Source: a virus. Taken from it: a stretch of 20,167 nucleotides of DNA. The notes beneath the pieces are model-generated. The model saw only the letters and a program-made list of their open reading frames with translations, was not told the origin of the DNA and made no database searches. The DNA lies in the IMG/VR virus record IMGVR_UViG_3300034374_000371, positions 1 through 20,167 of that record. The stretch is one strand, 5' to 3'. The first letter of the stretch is position 1. Each line of letters opens with the position of its first letter. A program made the position numbers and the translations under genes. Positions 896 through 14,856 of this stretch are shown here, piece by piece.

Positions 896-925
896 GCAAC
901 ATTTGTGATATATTTACAACACTAA

Positions 926-949
926 ATTCGCCCTTTTAGGATAACGAAT
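926..949 (+). ncRNA. Small hairpin at the 5' side of the capsid leader
   Basis: ATTCG (926-930) pairs with CGAAT (945-949). Inside it C932-C933-T934 can pair with A938-G939-G940 around a TTT loop. It lies just upstream of the larger 956-1032 fold and may be its first stem. A five-plus-three base-pair stem alone could be chance; adjacency to two stronger stems raises the likelihood that it belongs to one element. Confidence 0.4.
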
Positions 950-955
950 AGGTAG

Positions 956-1032
956 CCGTGATGGCTTTAAACTTCCGATTGATCGTATCGTTTACGATAA
1001 GGTTTCCCGTAAGGACAAAAGCCGACACACGG
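956..1032 (+). ncRNA. Candidate structured RNA element upstream of the capsid gene
   Basis: This part of the gene-free leader folds as nested stems. CCGTG (956-960) pairs with CACGG (1028-1032). GGCTTT (963-968) pairs with AAAGCC (1018-1023). AAACTT (969-974) can pair with AGGTTT (1000-1005) with one G-U. ATCGTA (982-987) pairs with TACGAT (993-998) over a five-base loop. On the 3' side CCCGTAAGGACA (1006-1017) stays unpaired. GC content is about 47% over these 77 bases, against about 30% around it, which is typical of a conserved RNA in AT-rich DNA. It is not a tRNA: there is no TTCRANNC arm. I cannot match it to a riboswitch or ribozyme class I know. Possible roles are a cis-regulator of capsid translation, a processing site, or a stable small RNA. 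Confidence 0.6.
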
Positions 1033-1069
1033 AATATAGTATAATGCATTTGTATTATGCTCTCTATTC
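1032..1069 (+). promoter_or_regulatory. Long hairpin just before the capsid ribosome-binding site
   Basis: GAATA (1032-1036) pairs with TATTC (1065-1069). After a small asymmetric internal loop, AGTATAATGC (1038-1047) pairs with GTATTATGCT (1052-1061) through ten base pairs, two of them G-U, with an ATTT loop (1048-1051). It ends 11 bases before the AGGAGG at 1081-1086. It could protect or process the capsid mRNA (an RNase III-type site is plausible) or insulate the ribosome site. The 5' arm contains a perfect TATAAT (1040-1045), but I see no convincing -35 box at normal spacing, so a promoter here is unproven. G1032 would be shared with the preceding stem, so the two folds compete at that base. 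Confidence 0.5.
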
Positions 1070-1093
1070 TTAAACTTAATAGGAGGACTTAAT

Positions 1094-1954
1094 ATGTCAA
1101 CTCAAATAACAACTGCTTTTGTAGAACAATACAAAAGTAATGTGTTTCATTTGGCTCAACAAAAAGGTTCTAGATTAAGAGATGCGGTAAGATCTGAAAG
1201 TGTAACAGGTAAATCACATTTCTTTGAAAGAATTGGGTCAACTGCGGCACAAAAAAGAACTTCTAGACACGCTGACACTCCAAGAGTGGACACGCCACAT
1301 TCTAGAAGAAAAGTAACTATGGATGATTACGATTGGGCAGACTTAATTGATCAAGAAGATAAAGTAAGAATGCTTATTTCGCCTCAATCCGAATACGCTA
1401 AAGCTGGTGCTTACGCTATGGGTAGAGCAATGGATGACGCAATTATTGCGGCGGCTACTGGAACTGCTTATGGTGGAGTTAGTGGTGGTACAAGTATTGC
1501 ATTACCATCTGCTCAAAAAGTAGCAGTAGCAACAAGTGGTTTATCATTGGAAAAATTAATCAGCGCTAAAGAAATTCTTGATGCGGCTGATGTTGATCCA
1601 GATGAAGAAAGATATATGATTTGCACAGCAAAACAAATGTCTGATCTTCTTGCGTTAGAGAAAATCACTTCTGCTGACTACGCAACAGTTAAGGCGCTAG
1701 TACAAGGTGCTATTGATAGTTTCATGGGCTTCAAGTTTATCAGATCAGAAAGACTTGGAACTGACGGAAACGGTGATAGACAAGTATTAGCTTTCACTAA
1801 ATCAGCTATGGGTCTTGCGCTTGGTAGAGATATTGCTACAAAAATCTCTGAAAGAGCAGACAAGAACTATGCAACACAGGTATTTTTATCTATGACTATC
1901 GGCGCTACAAGAGTAGAAGACGAGAAAGTAGTAGAAATAGCTTGTGCGGAATAA
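1094..1954 (+). CDS. Major capsid protein
   Basis: This 286-residue protein is the expected major head subunit of BPP-1-like podoviruses. The N-terminus (MSTQITTAFVEQYKSNVFHL) leads into a Gln/Ser/Arg block and RHADTPRVDTPHSRRKVTM. It then reads DYDWADLIDQEDKVRMLISP and AYAMGRAMDDAIIAAATG. A central glycine-rich stretch and the domain SAKEILDAADVDPDEERYMI follow. This order fits the phage capsid family that holds BPP-1-type major capsid proteins (from memory), and the position between scaffold and cement protein supports it. The start is fixed by AGGAGG 1081-1086. Codon use is richer in C- and G-ending codons than the tail genes, consistent with high expression. It has its own long structured leader and shares a transcript with the next gene, 12 bases downstream. 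Confidence 0.88.
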   Translation: MSTQITTAFVEQYKSNVFHLAQQKGSRLRDAVRSESVTGKSHFFERIGSTAAQKRTSRHADTPRVDTPHSRRKVTMDDYDWADLIDQEDKVRMLISPQSEYAKAGAYAMGRAMDDAIIAAATGTAYGGVSGGTSIALPSAQKVAVATSGLSLEKLISAKEILDAADVDPDEERYMICTAKQMSDLLALEKITSADYATVKALVQGAIDSFMGFKFIRSERLGTDGNGDRQVLAFTKSAMGLALGRDIATKISERADKNYATQVFLSMTIGATRVEDEKVVEIACAE

Positions 1955-1966
1955 AGGAGATAAATT

Positions 1967-2389
1967 ATGGCTAGTGTAAAAGGTTCAAATTTTACTAACA
2001 TAACTGCTGATCCTGTTGTTAAAACATCATCACAGTATGCTCATGGTAAAATAAGAGTAATATACGATACATATGAAGCATCTTCTTTGGCTAATCCGTC
2101 TGACATTTCAGTTGCAAGATTACCAAAAGGCGCAGTAGTGTATGACATTGTTGTACATCATGACGCTTTAGGTTCTGGTGTAACTTTATCAGTAGGTGAT
2201 AGCGGTAGTGCAACAAGATACATTGGTGCAACTGCGGCGGCAACTGCTGGAAAAATAGTAATGTCAGAAGATGGCGCTATTGACGGTTTCGGATATGAAA
2301 ATTCATCTGAAACAGATGTTTTAATTACTACAGGCGGTGGTGCGGCTACAGGAACTATTAAAGTTGCTGTAATGTACGCTGTTGAGTAA
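1967..2389 (+). CDS. Head cement/decoration-like protein
   Basis: This 140-residue Gly/Ala/Ser/Val-rich protein has almost no charged helix-forming stretches. It reads as a small beta sandwich: KIRVIYDTYEASS, then ARLPKGAVVYDIVVHH, then SGVTLSVGDSGSATRYIG, and a final strand TIKVAVMYAVE. In BPP-1-like phages the gene after the capsid gene encodes a cement protein that clamps capsomers at the outer surface, so I infer that role from position, size and fold type. AAAGGAG at 1953-1959 sets the start. The gene follows the capsid stop by 12 bases, and a strong terminator-like hairpin follows within 20 bases, so capsid and cement probably form one high-level unit. It could instead be another head-stabilising protein. 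Confidence 0.65.
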   Translation: MASVKGSNFTNITADPVVKTSSQYAHGKIRVIYDTYEASSLANPSDISVARLPKGAVVYDIVVHHDALGSGVTLSVGDSGSATRYIGATAAATAGKIVMSEDGAIDGFGYENSSETDVLITTGGGAATGTIKVAVMYAVE

Positions 2390-2407
2390 TACATAACAAA
2401 CAATTAG

Positions 2408-2444
2408 AAGGGGCGATATATATTGAATTATAGTCGCCCCTTTG
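2408..2444 (+). terminator. Hairpin terminator after the capsid/cement pair
   Basis: AAGGGGCGA (2408-2416) pairs perfectly with TCGCCCCTT (2434-2442). TATA/TATA pairing extends it inward past a bulged G2433, over a small AT loop. This is the most GC-rich stem in the window outside the capsid leader. The 3' T run is short (TTTGATATAT), so termination may be partial, leaving some read-through into the tail genes. Confidence 0.75.
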
Positions 2445-6141: not shown

Positions 6142-7921
6142 CGAACAAAAATCAGACATAGGATCTGGTAGATCTTTAACTACAGGAACAAGTGCTAGTA
6201 GTACAATAGCTAGTATTGGTAAACAAGTATTTAATCAAGTAGCTGAATTAGGCAATAAACAAAATGCCATGACAGCAAAATTAAGAAGATTAGAAATTAA
6301 TACAAATGTTGATTTATCAAAATCAACTATGTTTGGAAAACAAACAGAATTTTCTGATAGTTTGTTAGAAAGAGATGATTATTTAACACCAGATAATTGG
6401 TTATTAGATTATGAAAAAAATTCAAAAACATGGGAAAAAGAATTTAAAAGTGGATTAGATGAACAAACATGGAAAGAATATCAACCTTTTTATTATCAAT
6501 CATATTTTGAAGGAAGACAAAATGTAAAAAAAGCAATTAGAGATCAAAAAATTAAAAACAATTTTATTGCTTACGATCAAACAAAAACAGATTATTTAAC
6601 TAATTTAGAAAAATTAACAAATCCAAAAGAAATAGCATTGCAATATGAATTGTTTGTAGAAACAACTTTAAAAACTAAAAAAACATTAGATATTTTTGAA
6701 GCTGAAAAATATAACGAAGAAGTAAATAATGTTAAATTAGCTACTAACAATAAATATATGATGATACAAGCTATTGGTACAGATTATATTTTAAGTCCAA
6801 ATAAAACTAAAGAAATAGATTGGAACAAAACATTAACTAAATTAAAAGATAAAAATTTTGAAATTAAAGATGTTGATGGAACACCAGTAAAACCAAATGA
6901 TAAATTAAGAGCAGATTTAATTACACAAGCTAAAACAAAATTTGACAATCAAACAGCTACATTTGATAAACAAATAGATCAAAACAATAAACAAACAAAA
7001 CAAGAACTTTCAAATGATTTAATTAAAATAGCTAATGGTCAAGATAAAGACGGTAATATTTCTGGTAATTTTTTAACTAAACTTGAAGGATCTACATTAA
7101 AAGATACAGAAAAAAAAGCATACTTAAATGCATTTAAAACACAATTATCAAGCGGTGTAAAAAGTTGGGATACAGGCCAAGCACAAAATGCACAAATATT
7201 AGCAAATATTATGATTGCTAAAGGTTTAATTGATACAGAAAAAGAAAAAGATTTTATTAATGAATTATATTCAAATGGATTAATGTCACATGAAACATAC
7301 CGTACATTAGAAGGTAAAATTGATGAAAATATAAAAGCTAAAAATGCTTACAAAAATCCATTATATAAAAATGCAGTTAAAGTATTATTAGATGAATTAG
7401 GTGAAAAAAAACTTGGTGCAGTTTTATTACAAGATGCAAAAGATATGTCATTAGCTGATATAATGAACCAAATAACTGGATCTGGTTTAAGTCAAGAAAG
7501 TTATGATGCTCTTAACTATTTTAATCAAGTATTAGCAGAAGGTGAAAAAAGAGGTTTTAATTATGTCAATATGTTGGTTAAAAAAGGACATGAAAATTAC
7601 ATTATGGATGATATTTTAACTTATGCTAAATCTGCTAAAGATAAAAAAGTACCTGCATTAGTACCATTACCAGAAGGTTTTGATAAAAATAAACCATATC
7701 ATTTAGCACCAGAAGTTTGGTTTAAAGGTAAATCACCAGAGGTATTAGGATACACAGTACCAAAAAGAAATAAAGGTGAGAGTGTTCCAGCTTACTTAAA
7801 TAGAACAATGACAGAACTTAAAGCTAAAAAATTTAATTTGCCTTCTACATTAACTGGTTTTCAATTTGAACAAGATTTTGATTTGAACACAGAAATGATA
7901 GTGCCAAATATTAAAAAATAA
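6122..7921 (+). CDS. Internal virion protein, T7 gp15-like by position
   Basis: This 599-residue, Lys/Asn/Glu/Gln-rich protein is predicted to be almost entirely helical and has no membrane segment. It begins with MKIPRYNEQKS, an opening common in podovirus internal core proteins. A Ser/Thr/Gly-rich stretch and long amphipathic helices follow, with the block DNWLLDYEKNSKTWEKEF near residues 93-110. No enzymatic motif is visible. Its place between the gp14-like gene and the giant protein makes it the likely second internal core or ejection protein, forming part of the DNA-delivery tube. The start overlaps the preceding small gene by 20 bases, with only AGG (6112-6114) as ribosome site. The stop overlaps the next start (TAATG, 7919-7923), coupling it to the giant gene. 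Family identity is by context rather than sequence. Confidence 0.65.
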   Translation: MKIPRYNEQKSDIGSGRSLTTGTSASSTIASIGKQVFNQVAELGNKQNAMTAKLRRLEINTNVDLSKSTMFGKQTEFSDSLLERDDYLTPDNWLLDYEKNSKTWEKEFKSGLDEQTWKEYQPFYYQSYFEGRQNVKKAIRDQKIKNNFIAYDQTKTDYLTNLEKLTNPKEIALQYELFVETTLKTKKTLDIFEAEKYNEEVNNVKLATNNKYMMIQAIGTDYILSPNKTKEIDWNKTLTKLKDKNFEIKDVDGTPVKPNDKLRADLITQAKTKFDNQTATFDKQIDQNNKQTKQELSNDLIKIANGQDKDGNISGNFLTKLEGSTLKDTEKKAYLNAFKTQLSSGVKSWDTGQAQNAQILANIMIAKGLIDTEKEKDFINELYSNGLMSHETYRTLEGKIDENIKAKNAYKNPLYKNAVKVLLDELGEKKLGAVLLQDAKDMSLADIMNQITGSGLSQESYDALNYFNQVLAEGEKRGFNYVNMLVKKGHENYIMDDILTYAKSAKDKKVPALVPLPEGFDKNKPYHLAPEVWFKGKSPEVLGYTVPKRNKGESVPAYLNRTMTELKAKKFNLPSTLTGFQFEQDFDLNTEMIVPNIKK

Positions 7922-10900
7922 TGACTACTTTATTAACTACGTTGCAATTAAAACAAGCAGGTTTTTCTGATGACGCTATTGTTCATTGGGTAAATAATCA
8001 AAGACCATTACTTAAAAATGCAGGTTTTAGTGACATGGAAATTAATAATGCCTATGGAATAAAACCTACTGATCTTGCTTCAATTAATACTGAAATAATG
8101 AACAATGAAAGTAATGTTAGTATTAATGAAAACACAGTACATACAGATGGTGTTACTTCATTAAATAATAAAAATACCGTAGGTAAAGATAAATCAATAG
8201 ACACAATTAATTCAAGTTTAGATAAAGATTATGAAAAAATAGAAAAACTTAAATTACCTAATGAAGATAAAACTAAAATAAAAACAATGCTAAAAACATC
8301 TTTAGATAATTTTAAAGGTGATGATAAAGGTAGAGTAGGTTTTGAAGAAACGTGGTTAAACGATCATTATCCAGATATAACTTTAAATGATATTAAATTT
8401 TCAGAAGACAAAGATGTTGATTTATTAAGTACAGCATTAAATGATAAACAAGTAGAATTATTACAAGGCGCAGAAGCTAAAGATATTTTAAATGGTAATA
8501 TTGGTTACAATTCAAAAGAAAATAAATTTGTTTTTAGTAAAGAATATGAAGATGAAATTAGACCCGCTAGATTAAAACAAAAAGAAAAAGAATTAATTGA
8601 AGGTGTTAAAAAACAAAAATACAAATTATATGTATTAAATACACCATTAACTACAGGTCAAGAAAGTAGAAAAGTATTAAATTTTGCACAAGATTATTAT
8701 GGTGCAAACGAACAACAATTAAATAATTTCAATACATTTATTAGTTATGTTTCAACATTAGAAAGTGATAATAGAAATATTTATAGTCGTGATGGTGAAG
8801 CTAAAGGATTGTTTCAATTCAGAGGATCGTCTGCTGTTACAGGATTAAATAGATTTAAAAATCTAATGTATAAATTAGATAAAGATTATCAAATACCTAA
8901 ATGGTTAGAAGAAGCATATGAACATAAAGATTTTACAGCATTAACTCCAGATCAACAAAGAGCAGTTACTCTAGCTAATTTTATAATGATTGGGCCAAAC
9001 AAAACATTAAATAGAGCAGGTACAGATGATTTAATTAAAAGAATTATGGATGGTGATGTAGATGCTATGAAAGAATTATACAAAAGTTATCATCATGCTG
9101 ATTGGTACAAAGATGAAACACAAGGTAAATATGTATTACGTGATAATGAAAAATTAGACAAAAGAATAGATGACCATTTTAAATATTGGGGTACACAAGA
9201 TGTAGGTTACATGAACCCTCAAATTGCTACATGGCCAAGTGATTGGATGACTAAAGAAGGGCAAGGTGGAAAGTTTGATAACTTTGTAAGTTATTACATG
9301 GGTGGTCAAGGTGCTGAAAACGCATTTAGACAAGGTTATTATAATTCAGTTACAGGTTTATTTGATAGATATGTAGAATGGACAGAAGCTAATCCATTAG
9401 CAACTATTGAAGACAAAGAAGATAAAATGAAAGAAATGTTTATGTATAATGACGGATCTTTTGGTGATGCAGTTATTTCTTCAGCAGTACAATTAGTCAA
9501 TGATAGTCCATATATGATAGCAGGATGTTTTGCTACTGCTGGTGCTGTTACAGTAGGTACAGGAGGTATAGCCGCACCTGCCGCACCAGTTGTTTGTATG
9601 GGTGGTGCATTTGCTTTACCAGAAGCATTAAGACATCCGTTTACAGAAGGTTTGTTAGAAGGCAAGTGGAATAATTTTAGTGAATTTATGGATCACTTTT
9701 TAAGTTTAAAAAATGCTGAAATAGCAGGTAAGATGGGTGCTGTTGGTATGGTAACTGGCGCAGTTGGTAAAGTTGCTGAAGTTGGAACAAAAAAATATTT
9801 ACATAATTTTATAGGCCCACAAACAAAAGCACAATTAAAATACAGTAAAAAATGGTCAACAGCTAATAGGCTTGGTGTAGAAGTTTATGCAATGACAGAA
9901 TTAGGTGCAAGAGTGAATGGTCATACACCTACTATGGAAGATTTTGCACATACAGCAGTATTAATATTTGGTTTTCACGCAACAATTAAACAAGTAAATA
10001 ATCTTGTTAATTTATATAAAAAACACGCAGTACATCCAAAAGACGTACAAAAATTAGCAGAAGTAAATAAAGAAGTAAAAGATCAATTAAAAAAAGGTGA
10101 GATACCAGATGTATATACAGAATTACAAAAAGACGTAATTAACGGTTTAGAAAAAACAACTAATCAAAAAATATTACCAGAACCTAAATTTAAAATAGGT
10201 GAAAAAATAAACATTAATGTAGATGGTACAAGACAAGGTATTGTTGTTTCTAGAGAAGTTTCTGGTAATGAAACACTTTTAATTGTTAAAGATATTGAAG
10301 GTAACAATATTACAATATTAGAAAGCCAAGCACGTAAAACAGACCCAGTTGATAAAATACAAGTTAAAATAAATGAAAAAGACGGATCTTTAGAAATAAC
10401 TAAAAAAGAAGCAGACGCTAATGAAATTAGCGCAGGTAGTAAAGACGGTGAAGTTAGTTTTAAATCTAAACAAGAAGCAAATGAATTTAGTCCAGATATA
10501 ATAGAATTACAAAATGGATCATCACGTTTTATTAAAAACAAAGATGGTACTACATATAAATCTACAGCTAAAGAAGCAGTACAAGAAACATCAAATAATG
10601 TAAAAGAAAAATTTATATCTGAAGACGGTGCAGTAGAAACTAATGGTATTATACTTACTGTTAAAAAATTTTATCCAGAAATAACAAAAGAAAAATCTAA
10701 TTATGAAGTTGTTGGTAAATATAAAACAGCAATGGATTTAATTAACAAAACATTTGATGGTGTTACAAATAAATACAAAAGAATATCAATGGTGTTTGCA
10801 GGTAAAAAAGGATTAGATTTTAATGTAGATAGTTTAGTAGCTAAAATAGGAAATGATTTTATTTCAATACCTAGAAAAGCATATGAACAATTAATGAAGT

Positions 10901-13900
10901 TTAATGACAATGGAACAATTAAACAAGCTAAAGTAGCAGGTATATCTAAAGATAAACCATTAGTATTTTTAGATCCAGTAACAAATGAGATTGTTGCTAT
11001 GTTAAAAGTTACACCGCTTAAAAAAGGTGAAAGATCATATTCACAAGCAGAAAGTTATTGGAATGAATATTCTGATTATAGAGGAACAGGTAATTTTCAT
11101 TATAGTAAAAGAACAAGAGATAGTGATAATGCAGGTATTCCAGATGAACCTTGGCATCCTAGTAATAGATCAATGGGTACTAAAGACAACTGGAAACAAT
11201 TATTTGAAAGTTCTACAGGTCTTGATTATTTTAATATTGTTACTTTAGTAGAAAGTTTATTAGGTAAATTACCTAAAGAAACTAGCAGACGTACTGGTTA
11301 TTTAGGTGTGTTTAGACATTTAAAAAAACAAGATCCTAATATACCTTTAAGAAGACAAGCAGAAATAGAAGTACAAAGAAATTTACAAGACAACCCTGCT
11401 GATTTTTTAAAAACACTTACACATGAATTAGGACACTTAATTGATTTTGTTCCAGATAGATCAATGAAAAAAGGTAATATTCTTGGACACATTGCTAATT
11501 TTAAAAGTTTCTTAAACAAATGGATAGACGGTAAAAACGAAGGTAATAAACCATTAGATAGAAAAGAAATAGCGGCAATAAAAAAACAAGCAAATGAATT
11601 AGCTAAATCAAAAGAAAAAGAAACTAATAAAGAAATAGAAACAGATCTTAAAATAACACCAGATAAAATATTACAAATATTTACAGATCCAAATGTTAGA
11701 AATAAAATAGATCCAGAATTTTATGATGCATTTGCTAAATTAGGTTCTTCAGTTAAAAAAGAAGTAGTTAAAGATGCAATGAAGGGAATGTTATCGCATC
11801 ATATTAAAGCTATTGCAGACAAAGTTAATGGTAAAAAAGTTGATCCTAGACTTTCTGATGAAGCTAATACAATCTTTAAAAACTTATTTGAAGCAGAATT
11901 AAAGAAAAGAAATTTAGTAAGCGTACAAGAAATTAGAGCAGAATTAAAAGCATTGTCTATGAAATGGCATCCGTGGAATAGAGCAACTGCACCTAAAAAA
12001 TATGCAGAATACAGAGATAGTCCATCTGAATTAATGGCTGAATTTATGATGGCATTATTATTAAGACCACAATGGACAAAATTTAATGCACCTAAATCTT
12101 TTGATCTATTAATGTATCACATGAAAAATAGACCAGAAGTAATGGATAATTATATTACTATTCAAAACTTATTAAACGCACCTGTTAAAAAACAAGACGC
12201 TGTTAAATACCAAGCGACTATGGATATGTTTATGAGAGGTGATAAACAAATAAGAGAAGCTGTTAAAGATGCAGAAAAAACTAAAAGAGAAGCATTAGAT
12301 GATATAGGTACAGAAGTTCTTGATAATTTCTGGTGGATGTTACAACATTTAAAATTAGACAGTCAAAGAGGTAATAGTCCATTAGCAAAAGACGTTAGAT
12401 ATTATATTGAAAATTACAGATATAGATGGGCTGAAGGTTCTTTATATAAAAGAATGATTGAAGAACGTATTATTAAACAAATACATAATCTTGGTTATAA
12501 CAAAAATCAATTTGGTTATACATTGTTGTTAAAAAACTTGGCAGAAAGTCAACAAAGGGAAGGTAAAATTACTTGGAAGTTTTACAAAATGCCTAAAGAA
12601 TTAGAACAACAATTTAAAAAAGAAGAAGGTGACATTGTTGGTATGTATGAAAGATGGGCAATGGATCACCCAGAATTAGTTAGAATTGCAAATGAATTTG
12701 CTGAATTAAGACAAACAGAAGTAGTACAAGCTGTAGCTAATGAAGGTGTAATTAGTCCAGATATAGTTCAACAAATGAAAGATAATACTGCTTACATTAA
12801 ATATCAACCAATAGAAGTTTTAATTGAAAAAATAGAAAAGATGGGAAAATATGTATTAGGTAAAGGATCTTTAAAAAAAACAAAAGGAACATTTAGTGAA
12901 TTTGCAAATCCTTTTGATTTTACTGTAGCCGCAGATATGCAAATTATGGCTGAAGTAAAAAAACATAATACTTATTATCATATTGTAGAATTTTTAAAGA
13001 CACATAAAACAGCATTAGAAGAAGCAAGTGGTGGTCAAAAAGTTATATCTAAACCAAAATATATTGGTAAAGGTGTATTAGATCCAAATGTACCTACTGG
13101 ATTAAAAAGAATTCAATTTATGCGTAATGGTAAAATGGAAACTTTTGATATTCATAGAGGAACAGCAGAAGCTATGGGAACAAATCCATTACAATTAAGA
13201 TGGACAGTAAGATGGTTAGCGGCAATCAATTCTGTTTCTAGAGCAGTTTTAACAGAACACAATCCTTTATTCTGGATATGGAATTGGGGATTTAGAGATA
13301 TGCGTAGATCATTTTTATTATTACCAAACGGTAAAGTAAGTAAAAGTTTAGGTAATAGAATTAAATATGTAAAAGAAGTTTTTGCATCTTTACCAGATGC
13401 TTGGAAATCTATTTACGGTGATGGTACTGCAATTACTAGACATATGGAAAAGAATGGATTTTTAATTGCGGCTGAAGAAGGTTACAGATCTGAAGCAGGT
13501 ATGGGTAGATCTAGATTAACTTTAGATGAAGACAGTTTTGCTTTAAAAAAACTTGTGTTTGAAAAGTACGAACAAAAAGGAAAATTTGGTGAATTATGGG
13601 ATGGTACTATGGGTGAATATTTAAGACATAGTGGTAATGTTGCTAGAATATTAGAACGATCACATAAAATAGCAGGTTATAAAGTAATAAAAGATCAAGT
13701 TAAAAAAGGTGAATTAAAAATAAGTGAAAAAGAATTGATGCAAATTATTCAATCTCAAATAGGTTCACCAAACTTTTTACGTCAAGGTAAAATGAACCCA
13801 GTATTAAATCAATTAATGTTATTCTATAATGCAAATAAAGAAGGTTATAGAGGTGATATAGAAGCATTTAAAAGAGATAAATCTGGAGTAGCTAGTAGAT

Positions 13901-14856
13901 TTTTCTTATATTCAGTAGCGCCTAAAGTTTTTGAAAAGATGATACAATATGGATTTTTAGGTAGTTCATTAGCAGTATTGTATAATGCTATACCAGATCA
14001 CGATAGAGATAATTTTAATGTAGTTCTTATTGGTAAGACAGAAGATAACAGACCAGTTTACATTAGATTTCCAATGGATTTTACGTCACAATTAATTACA
14101 AGTATATTTGGTACATCATTTGATATGATATTTGGTATTAATAAAGATTTATCTTCTTCAGAAAAACAAGCTAAATTTTGGGAAACAACAAAATCTGGTT
14201 TACCACAAATATCACCGTTTTTAGTTTTAATGTCGGAAGTAAGTCAAATGGTTTTAGGTCAAGAAGTTAGAGATAGATTTGGTAATCCTATTTTTGATCC
14301 ATTAATTCAAAAAATGGATTGGTTAGAAAGAGATGCTGTTAAATTACAAGAAACTTTAAAACACGTTTGGAATACAAATGGGCCAAGTTTTGTACACAAA
14401 TTTAAAAGTAAGTTTAAAAAAGATATTGCTAAAGAATATACTAATATAACAGGTTTTCCTTTAATAGATCCATTAATAGAAAGATTTTTAAAAGTAGGTG
14501 AAAACCCTGTAGTTGATGAATATTACAATATTAAGAATGTTGAAAACAGATTATTAAATTTAAAACAATATGATTTGAGAACAGCTATAGATAAAATAGC
14601 TACAGGCAAAATAGATGAATTAACAGCTAATGAAAAACAAGCATTAGTATTAACGCCTCAATTAGCTAATAATACTTACTTTATTGAAAACATATCTAAT
14701 GCGGCAGAAATATCAGAATTGTTGCAAATATTCCTAACTGGTGATACGAAAGATAGAGCCATGGCTTTAAAAGCTATGAAAAAGATAATGGGATCTGCAC
14801 CAGATTTAGAATTTAACTTTAAAATTACTGAAGAAGGTGATATTATAGGTAATTAA
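7921..14856 (+). CDS. Giant polyvalent internal virion protein with transglycosylase-like and metallopeptidase-like motifs
   Basis: This 2311-residue protein is likely packed in the head and ejected with the DNA. The N-terminus has two copies of an AGFSD motif (residues 13-17 and 34-38). A lytic-transglycosylase-like region follows at about 260-420, with E281 in LESDN as the candidate catalytic Glu and AKGLFQF at 294-300, which would cut peptidoglycan at entry. A hydrophobic Gly/Ala-rich stretch (about 532-572) could insert in a membrane. Residues 755-810 look like a small SH3-type barrel. HELGH at 1168-1172 is a zinc metallopeptidase signature, with SELMAE (1369-1374) offering a possible third ligand. 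EHNPLFWIWNWGFRD (1779-1793) resembles the LPD38 domain of large polyvalent phage proteins. It starts by TAATG coupling. Whether the protease motif is active cannot be told from sequence. Confidence 0.8.
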   Translation: MTTLLTTLQLKQAGFSDDAIVHWVNNQRPLLKNAGFSDMEINNAYGIKPTDLASINTEIMNNESNVSINENTVHTDGVTSLNNKNTVGKDKSIDTINSSLDKDYEKIEKLKLPNEDKTKIKTMLKTSLDNFKGDDKGRVGFEETWLNDHYPDITLNDIKFSEDKDVDLLSTALNDKQVELLQGAEAKDILNGNIGYNSKENKFVFSKEYEDEIRPARLKQKEKELIEGVKKQKYKLYVLNTPLTTGQESRKVLNFAQDYYGANEQQLNNFNTFISYVSTLESDNRNIYSRDGEAKGLFQFRGSSAVTGLNRFKNLMYKLDKDYQIPKWLEEAYEHKDFTALTPDQQRAVTLANFIMIGPNKTLNRAGTDDLIKRIMDGDVDAMKELYKSYHHADWYKDETQGKYVLRDNEKLDKRIDDHFKYWGTQDVGYMNPQIATWPSDWMTKEGQGGKFDNFVSYYMGGQGAENAFRQGYYNSVTGLFDRYVEWTEANPLATIEDKEDKMKEMFMYNDGSFGDAVISSAVQLVNDSPYMIAGCFATAGAVTVGTGGIAAPAAPVVCMGGAFALPEALRHPFTEGLLEGKWNNFSEFMDHFLSLKNAEIAGKMGAVGMVTGAVGKVAEVGTKKYLHNFIGPQTKAQLKYSKKWSTANRLGVEVYAMTELGARVNGHTPTMEDFAHTAVLIFGFHATIKQVNNLVNLYKKHAVHPKDVQKLAEVNKEVKDQLKKGEIPDVYTELQKDVINGLEKTTNQKILPEPKFKIGEKININVDGTRQGIVVSREVSGNETLLIVKDIEGNNITILESQARKTDPVDKIQVKINEKDGSLEITKKEADANEISAGSKDGEVSFKSKQEANEFSPDIIELQNGSSRFIKNKDGTTYKSTAKEAVQETSNNVKEKFISEDGAVETNGIILTVKKFYPEITKEKSNYEVVGKYKTAMDLINKTFDGVTNKYKRISMVFAGKKGLDFNVDSLVAKIGNDFISIPRKAYEQLMKFNDNGTIKQAKVAGISKDKPLVFLDPVTNEIVAMLKVTPLKKGERSYSQAESYWNEYSDYRGTGNFHYSKRTRDSDNAGIPDEPWHPSNRSMGTKDNWKQLFESSTGLDYFNIVTLVESLLGKLPKETSRRTGYLGVFRHLKKQDPNIPLRRQAEIEVQRNLQDNPADFLKTLTHELGHLIDFVPDRSMKKGNILGHIANFKSFLNKWIDGKNEGNKPLDRKEIAAIKKQANELAKSKEKETNKEIETDLKITPDKILQIFTDPNVRNKIDPEFYDAFAKLGSSVKKEVVKDAMKGMLSHHIKAIADKVNGKKVDPRLSDEANTIFKNLFEAELKKRNLVSVQEIRAELKALSMKWHPWNRATAPKKYAEYRDSPSELMAEFMMALLLRPQWTKFNAPKSFDLLMYHMKNRPEVMDNYITIQNLLNAPVKKQDAVKYQATMDMFMRGDKQIREAVKDAEKTKREALDDIGTEVLDNFWWMLQHLKLDSQRGNSPLAKDVRYYIENYRYRWAEGSLYKRMIEERIIKQIHNLGYNKNQFGYTLLLKNLAESQQREGKITWKFYKMPKELEQQFKKEEGDIVGMYERWAMDHPELVRIANEFAELRQTEVVQAVANEGVISPDIVQQMKDNTAYIKYQPIEVLIEKIEKMGKYVLGKGSLKKTKGTFSEFANPFDFTVAADMQIMAEVKKHNTYYHIVEFLKTHKTALEEASGGQKVISKPKYIGKGVLDPNVPTGLKRIQFMRNGKMETFDIHRGTAEAMGTNPLQLRWTVRWLAAINSVSRAVLTEHNPLFWIWNWGFRDMRRSFLLLPNGKVSKSLGNRIKYVKEVFASLPDAWKSIYGDGTAITRHMEKNGFLIAAEEGYRSEAGMGRSRLTLDEDSFALKKLVFEKYEQKGKFGELWDGTMGEYLRHSGNVARILERSHKIAGYKVIKDQVKKGELKISEKELMQIIQSQIGSPNFLRQGKMNPVLNQLMLFYNANKEGYRGDIEAFKRDKSGVASRFFLYSVAPKVFEKMIQYGFLGSSLAVLYNAIPDHDRDNFNVVLIGKTEDNRPVYIRFPMDFTSQLITSIFGTSFDMIFGINKDLSSSEKQAKFWETTKSGLPQISPFLVLMSEVSQMVLGQEVRDRFGNPIFDPLIQKMDWLERDAVKLQETLKHVWNTNGPSFVHKFKSKFKKDIAKEYTNITGFPLIDPLIERFLKVGENPVVDEYYNIKNVENRLLNLKQYDLRTAIDKIATGKIDELTANEKQALVLTPQLANNTYFIENISNAAEISELLQIFLTGDTKDRAMALKAMKKIMGSAPDLEFNFKITEEGDIIGN

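Follow-up and report, generated by a model that had tools for sequence, protein, structure and literature searches.

Comparative evidence for a conserved structured RNA in the capsid gene leader of pelagiphage-like podoviruses

Introduction

The locus described here raises the question of what purpose a gap of 198 bases (896–1093) serves between an open reading frame at 83–895 and the gene of the major capsid protein. The window, i.e. the whole stretch of DNA that was analysed, comprises 20,167 nucleotides (positions 1 to 20,167 of IMG/VR record IMGVR_UViG_3300034374_000371), and this gap is the longest in its list of open reading frames. An earlier note, made from the letters of the DNA, had pointed to the gap and to its raised GC content, and both observations were reproduced: positions 956–1032 have a GC content of 46.8% in comparison to 31.7% for the whole window. 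The folding energy of the region 900–1110, for which the note had envisaged a comparison with shuffled sequence, was better than that of 200 of 200 dinucleotide shuffles (z = -4.07).

The genome to which the window belongs is that of a pelagiphage-like podovirus. The hosts of such viruses are the ocean's commonest bacteria. The capsid protein shares 78.7% identity with that of the cultured Pelagibacter phage Baldr, and at the DNA level, 72% of the leader aligns with the Baldr leader at 82% identity. The capsid gene (1094–1954, plus strand; PHROG 3437, E = 1e-98) is preceded by a Shine-Dalgarno sequence AGGAGG, read from the sequence at 1081–1086 (plus strand), and is followed by the second gene of the unit, encoding a virion structural, decoration-like protein (1967–2389, plus strand; PHROG 486). 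At the level of PHROG annotation, the flanking genes on both sides match head and tail functions. A search of the window for tRNA and tmRNA genes found none. A single gene for a protein of 2311 amino acids (7921–14856) takes up more than one third of the window, and Baldr possesses a gene of 6990 bases at the matching place.

Fold of the capsid leader RNA

The capsid leader almost certainly contains a conserved structured RNA that is absent from Rfam. All 4227 Rfam families were searched at the gathering score, and neither the window nor 16 related loci yielded a match, in agreement with the note, which had recognised no riboswitch or ribozyme class. Permissive Rfam scans of the window leader, of a short class I leader and of a class II leader yielded only matches at chance level. 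A hammerhead-like P2 was considered and dropped, as the conserved core bases misfit. In the literature, no report of an RNA element in pelagiphage capsid leaders was found. The SAM-V, rpsB, rpsL and ffh leader motifs of Pelagibacter are likewise structured leaders which were found by comparison in SAR11 sequence, but they sit on host genes, and neither phages nor capsids are mentioned in that paper (PMC2704228).

As read from the aligned sequences, the conserved fold consists of the hairpins P1 and P4, which flank hairpin P2 with a pseudoknot and an optional hairpin P3. In the window, the whole conserved core (model R1, class I) extends from 925 to 1026 with a score of 102.9 bits, and all of its parts lie on the plus strand. 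P1 (926–949) is formed by the stems 926–930/945–949 and 932–933/939–940, and all four modelled outer pairs showed double compensatory changes; in its internal loop, C931 is located opposite A941–A944 (AUAA). P2 (954–966) possesses the stem 954–957/963–966 and the loop GUGAU, with double changes in 4 of 4 pairs, and the pseudoknot (960–975) pairs its loop positions 960–962 (GAU) with 973–975 (UUC). P3 (982–998; stem 982–986/994–998) carries CGU in its loop and showed double changes in 5 of 5 pairs. P4 (1001–1023) consists of the stems 1001–1005/1019–1023 and 1007–1008/1013–1014, a GUAA loop and an internal loop with C1006 opposite A1015–A1018 (ACAA). This hairpin is nearly invariant and therefore shows little covariation, namely one double change and G-U swaps. 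Among the members, the core is about 77–109 nt long, with P2, pseudoknot and P3 located between the twin hairpins; short members do not possess P3, and the pseudoknot is less clear in them. A further hairpin, P5 (1032–1069, plus strand), is an accessory domain of a subgroup with long leaders; it is kept in 24 distinct leaders of this subgroup and absent from the others.

For marine (pelagiphage-type) podoviruses, the comparative analysis supported the basic proposal of the earlier note that the capsid leader holds a structured RNA, and changed the architecture of this RNA. The note had drawn four nested stems between two flanking hairpins. From the nest, which corresponds to the minimum-energy fold of the window only, the stem 982–987/993–998 was retained as P3. 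For the stems 963–968/1018–1023 and 969–974/1000–1005, covariation in the counts from the family alignment was not above that of shuffles, and 956–960/1028–1032 is not kept in relatives, as judged from the alignment by eye. Instead, GGCU pairs inside P2 (954–957/963–966) in the relatives, and AAGCC pairs with GGUUU as P4. Compensatory changes, proposed in the note as a test, were present in P1–P3 and in the pseudoknot and absent in two of the nested stems. Both flanking hairpins (926–949 and 1032–1069) exist, the second one being restricted to the subgroup mentioned. As functions, the note had considered a setting of the capsid copy number, a processing site or a stable phage RNA; since the core helices comprise only 2–5 bp, processing of the leader by RNase III appears unlikely.

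Sampling and covariation

For the comparison, 80 loci were collected by capsid similarity, and this sample is hence biased towards the neighbourhood of the capsid gene. A second sample was obtained independently of capsid similarity by scanning a DNA pattern for the P4 hairpin over viral contigs; its matches, unlike the first sample, are free of this bias, and their count is to be read as "at least". In both sets together, 185 of the 186 P4-pattern matches listed lie about 20–80 nt upstream of this capsid gene. The one listed match which does not precede a capsid gene (L141) was rejected as a GC-rich chance match.

The covariance model detected exactly one element in each of 80 sources and one element per record in 11 long records. 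In the model-fitted alignment, which leans towards the model, 96.5% of the cells were paired in comparison to 29–49% with the partners slid, and 150 double-change cells were observed in comparison to 38 in shuffles; yet P1, P2 and P3 were also seen in plain MAFFT alignments. Every modelled pair of the P1 outer stem, of P2 and of P3 showed compensatory changes. RNAalifold recovered P4 alone from the first MAFFT alignment because the arms of P1 and P2 were misregistered there, which was cured by realignment with the model. The pseudoknot is located outside the covariance model. Its three pairs were formed in 86.5% of the cases (9–53% if slid) with 21 double-change cells, and the variants GAU/AUC, GAA/UUC, GCA/UGC, GUG/CAC, GGU/ACC, GUU/AAC and AAU/AUU occurred. 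Three pairs are possible in most relatives, for example with GAA/UUC in L086, and the window itself has GAU/UUC, i.e. two pairs and a U-U.

It could be argued that the leader folds by chance, or that its DNA is constrained as an operator or a dense promoter without any role as RNA, and the minimum-energy fold of the window indeed differs from the conserved fold. This explanation is refuted in the main by the compensatory changes in P1, P2, P3 and the pseudoknot and by the independent covariation in class II (see below), and it is hardly credible any more. The leader RNA is new to Rfam, and its shape was kept by evolution while the letters changed.

Twin internal loops and their distribution

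An asymmetric internal loop is common to P1 and P4, in which a single C (rarely U or A) is located opposite A-Y-A-A; in P1, some variants with A-G-A-A or A-A-A-A occur. A hairpin scan of ten near-complete records and the window revealed that this C/AYAA module is present in class I genomes almost only in the capsid leader, with about 0–0.6 modules per genome expected by chance. No second pair of C/AYAA hairpins was detected elsewhere in the scanned phage records and the window. Further matches to the module were found at 12128 of the window (low-quality) and at 11573 of record G006. Probably, a protein binds at the two identical loops, or they make contacts in tertiary packing.

Searching 84,980 bacterial and archaeal genomes with the P4 pattern yielded 12 matches. 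Only L218 from the marine bin TMED56 reached the score of a true element (57 bits), and this sequence is probably a phage contig. The other 11 of the 12 scored at most 21.6 bits, and a host origin of the element was rejected.

Related leaders in other phages

In HTVC010P-type and more distant phages, no significant match to the class I covariance model was obtained. Among the pelagiphage groups of the ocean, HTVC010P-type phages are reported to rank second in abundance (PMC12753301), and their capsid mRNAs start with a class II form. L222 and another 76 loci carry this form some 100 nt ahead of the capsid gene, and in many of these loci it overlaps with the 3' end of the small gene upstream. 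In 32 distinct class II leaders, 98.6% of the cells were paired in comparison to at most 46% when slid, with double changes in 12 of 23 pairs. In class II, ACAA lies on the 5' side of P1, opposite C, and AGAA lies on the 3' side of P4, likewise opposite C; judged by these sequences, the loop is of the same type as in class I and circularly permuted in P1. Cultured carriers are available for both classes, with Baldr for class I and HTVC010P for class II.

Furthermore, twin hairpins with a different 4x1 loop were detected in the capsid leaders of several Vibrio/Alteromonas-type phages (L204, L406, L409, L410, L411, L412). Here, the first hairpin has GUAG opposite U and the second one U opposite GUAG or GUUG, and two hairpins of this type occurred in 0–22 of 200 shuffles of these leaders. 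The loops follow an extended -10 box in permuted order; the architecture is the same as in the leader of the window, with unrelated sequence. One GUAG-type hairpin is clear in L203, and a permissive scan of L407 and L413 gave, as a lead, AGAA or ACAA opposite C together with C opposite ACUA. With these relatives, work in easier hosts becomes possible.

Predicted promoter and transcript 5' end

Positions 906–914 (plus strand) were recognised by consensus as an extended -10 promoter box, which reads TGA-TATATT in the window and TGnTATAAT in most relatives, and the transcription start is predicted at about 921. Of 78 leaders, 70 have 9–11 nt between the end of the box and the core, and no conserved -35 box was recognised among class I leaders; class II leaders are preceded by a -35 box similar to TTGCCA and a TATTAT box, as seen by eye. 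From the spacing, the stem of P1 is predicted to begin at about +4 to +7 of the putative start site. The distance between core and Shine-Dalgarno sequence amounts to 7–65 nt among the relatives. Because the spacing to the -10 box is nearly fixed while that to the Shine-Dalgarno sequence varies, the element appears to be anchored to the 5' end of the transcript, which argues against direct masking of the Shine-Dalgarno sequence. No gene for a T7-type RNA polymerase was found in these phage genomes, and the positive control HTVC019P worked. This and the promoter anchoring point to transcription by the host polymerase and to a function at the transcript 5' end. An intrinsic terminator was not seen between core and capsid gene. 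Transcriptomes of infected SAR11 cells are available for HTVC022P and HTVC027P, representatives of other phage groups.

Possible functions of the leader RNA

With this element it becomes testable how hundreds of capsid copies and few tail parts are made from one operon by a phage without its own polymerase. Single-copy and capsid-only placement, promoter anchoring and fold were computed; the RNA very likely acts in cis on the capsid mRNA and probably controls the amount of shell protein. As main action we favour, with a probability of roughly 40%, a stabilisation of the capsid mRNA from its 5' end. The host polymerase would start at the extended -10 box, and P1 would fold close to the 5' end, at a distance of a few nucleotides. 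A compact domain would be formed by the pseudoknot and the twin hairpins with their internal loops, and it may protect the mRNA from decay dependent on the 5' end (RppH/RNase E and, if present, RNase J). With a hairpin behind the decoration gene in addition, a long-lived and abundant capsid-decoration mRNA could result inside the late operon. It is known that secondary structure at the 5' end stabilises mRNA, as both RppH and RNase E act on 5' ends that have to be single-stranded (PMC3997798).

This role is put first because the 5' element and a 3' hairpin bracket the capsid-decoration message. The strong hairpin closing this unit (2407–2443, plus strand) is found at the same place in nearly all relatives, and a GC-rich hairpin of about 7–17 bp is located behind the decoration gene in almost every class I and class II genome. 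It has a U-rich tail in 8 of 24 class I and 7 of 20 class II genomes (a few of the hairpins picked lie elsewhere), and a conserved 3' hairpin that usually has no U-run fits a protected 3' end. Stabilising stem-loops of the papA and ompA type likewise lie a few nucleotides from the 5' end (here a predicted one) of an mRNA needed in abundance, but these are simple hairpins, in which neither invariant loops nor a pseudoknot occur. As a plain hairpin suffices for the protection of a 5' end, stabilisation leaves these two features of the capsid leader unexplained. Also against it, a larger distance separates the box from the first hairpin in some Vibrio-type leaders, amounting to about 32 nt in L409.

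A put-like element is an alternative explanation. In phage HK022, putL is an RNA of about 70 nt just downstream of its promoter, with two stem-loops whose bulges contact the polymerase, and the first base pair of putL is at A3 (PMC9378689). A similar element in the capsid leader would bind the host RNA polymerase as nascent RNA, so that it ignores pauses and terminators and reads through the hairpin at 2407–2443 into the tail genes; this hairpin would then be what is read through. Size and layout are similar: the capsid leader lies directly downstream of a host-type promoter (identified by consensus only), has two hairpins with unpaired loops and is probably transcribed by the host polymerase, and twin 4x1 loops recur in unrelated leaders. 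In put RNA, the two stem-loops join directly in a V, and antitermination proceeds independently of proteins via the beta' zinc-binding domain; between the twin hairpins of the capsid leader lie P2, the pseudoknot and P3. However, the capsid leader has a third hairpin with a pseudoknot and the same loop twice, it precedes the capsid gene and not early operons or the head of the late operon, and, at the level of the description of put, no common sequence was recognised. Antitermination would moreover cancel the high capsid-to-tail ratio which the hairpin could give, and the lack of a U-run in most 3' hairpins leaves little termination to defeat. Since putR acts about 270 nt from its start, a put element also needs no fixed spacing. 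Such a function is considered unlikely.

An equally doubtful explanation is autogenous control, in which a structural protein, be it free capsid protein or another one, would bind the twin loops and, as soon as shells are supplied, repress its own mRNA or make it less stable. Identical twin loops would suit a dimer, all but one of the pattern matches listed precede this capsid gene, and the architecture stays with the capsid gene in phages of different hosts. On the other hand, the Shine-Dalgarno spacing is not conserved, a conserved alternative fold covering the start site was not seen, and the capsid protein has no known RNA binding. The coat-protein operator of MS2-type phages is also a bulged hairpin tied to coat-protein expression, but it is single and overlaps the start site, whereas the capsid leader contains two putative sites far from the start codon.

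A complex pseudoknotted fold with invariant unpaired bases is also reminiscent of a riboswitch or another ligand-sensing leader. Such a function is improbable, as there is no Rfam match, the element was not found in host genomes, a single structural gene is the target, and neither a terminator nor a platform masking the Shine-Dalgarno sequence was found between core and gene.

More tentatively, twin hairpins with a repeated 4x1 loop, with AYAA opposite C in pelagiphages and GUAG opposite U in Vibrio/Alteromonas-type phages, might be a general, previously unnoticed device of capsid mRNAs in podoviruses without their own RNA polymerase. A single conserved partner, either the host polymerase or the capsid protein, would then recognise this device, which would set the dosage of shell protein.

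Repeats in the DNA were observed near some of these promoters. Upstream of the class II leader in L228, L238, L257 and L270, a covarying dyad (ATCCCTT...AAGGGAT or ACCCCTT...AAGGGGT) spans the promoter and is a candidate for an operator or an upstream terminator. In the Vibrio-type phages L409 and L410, a long inverted repeat, GTGTTCTCCCTATG...CATAGGGAGAACAC, flanks the promoter TGATATAAT upstream of the capsid gene.
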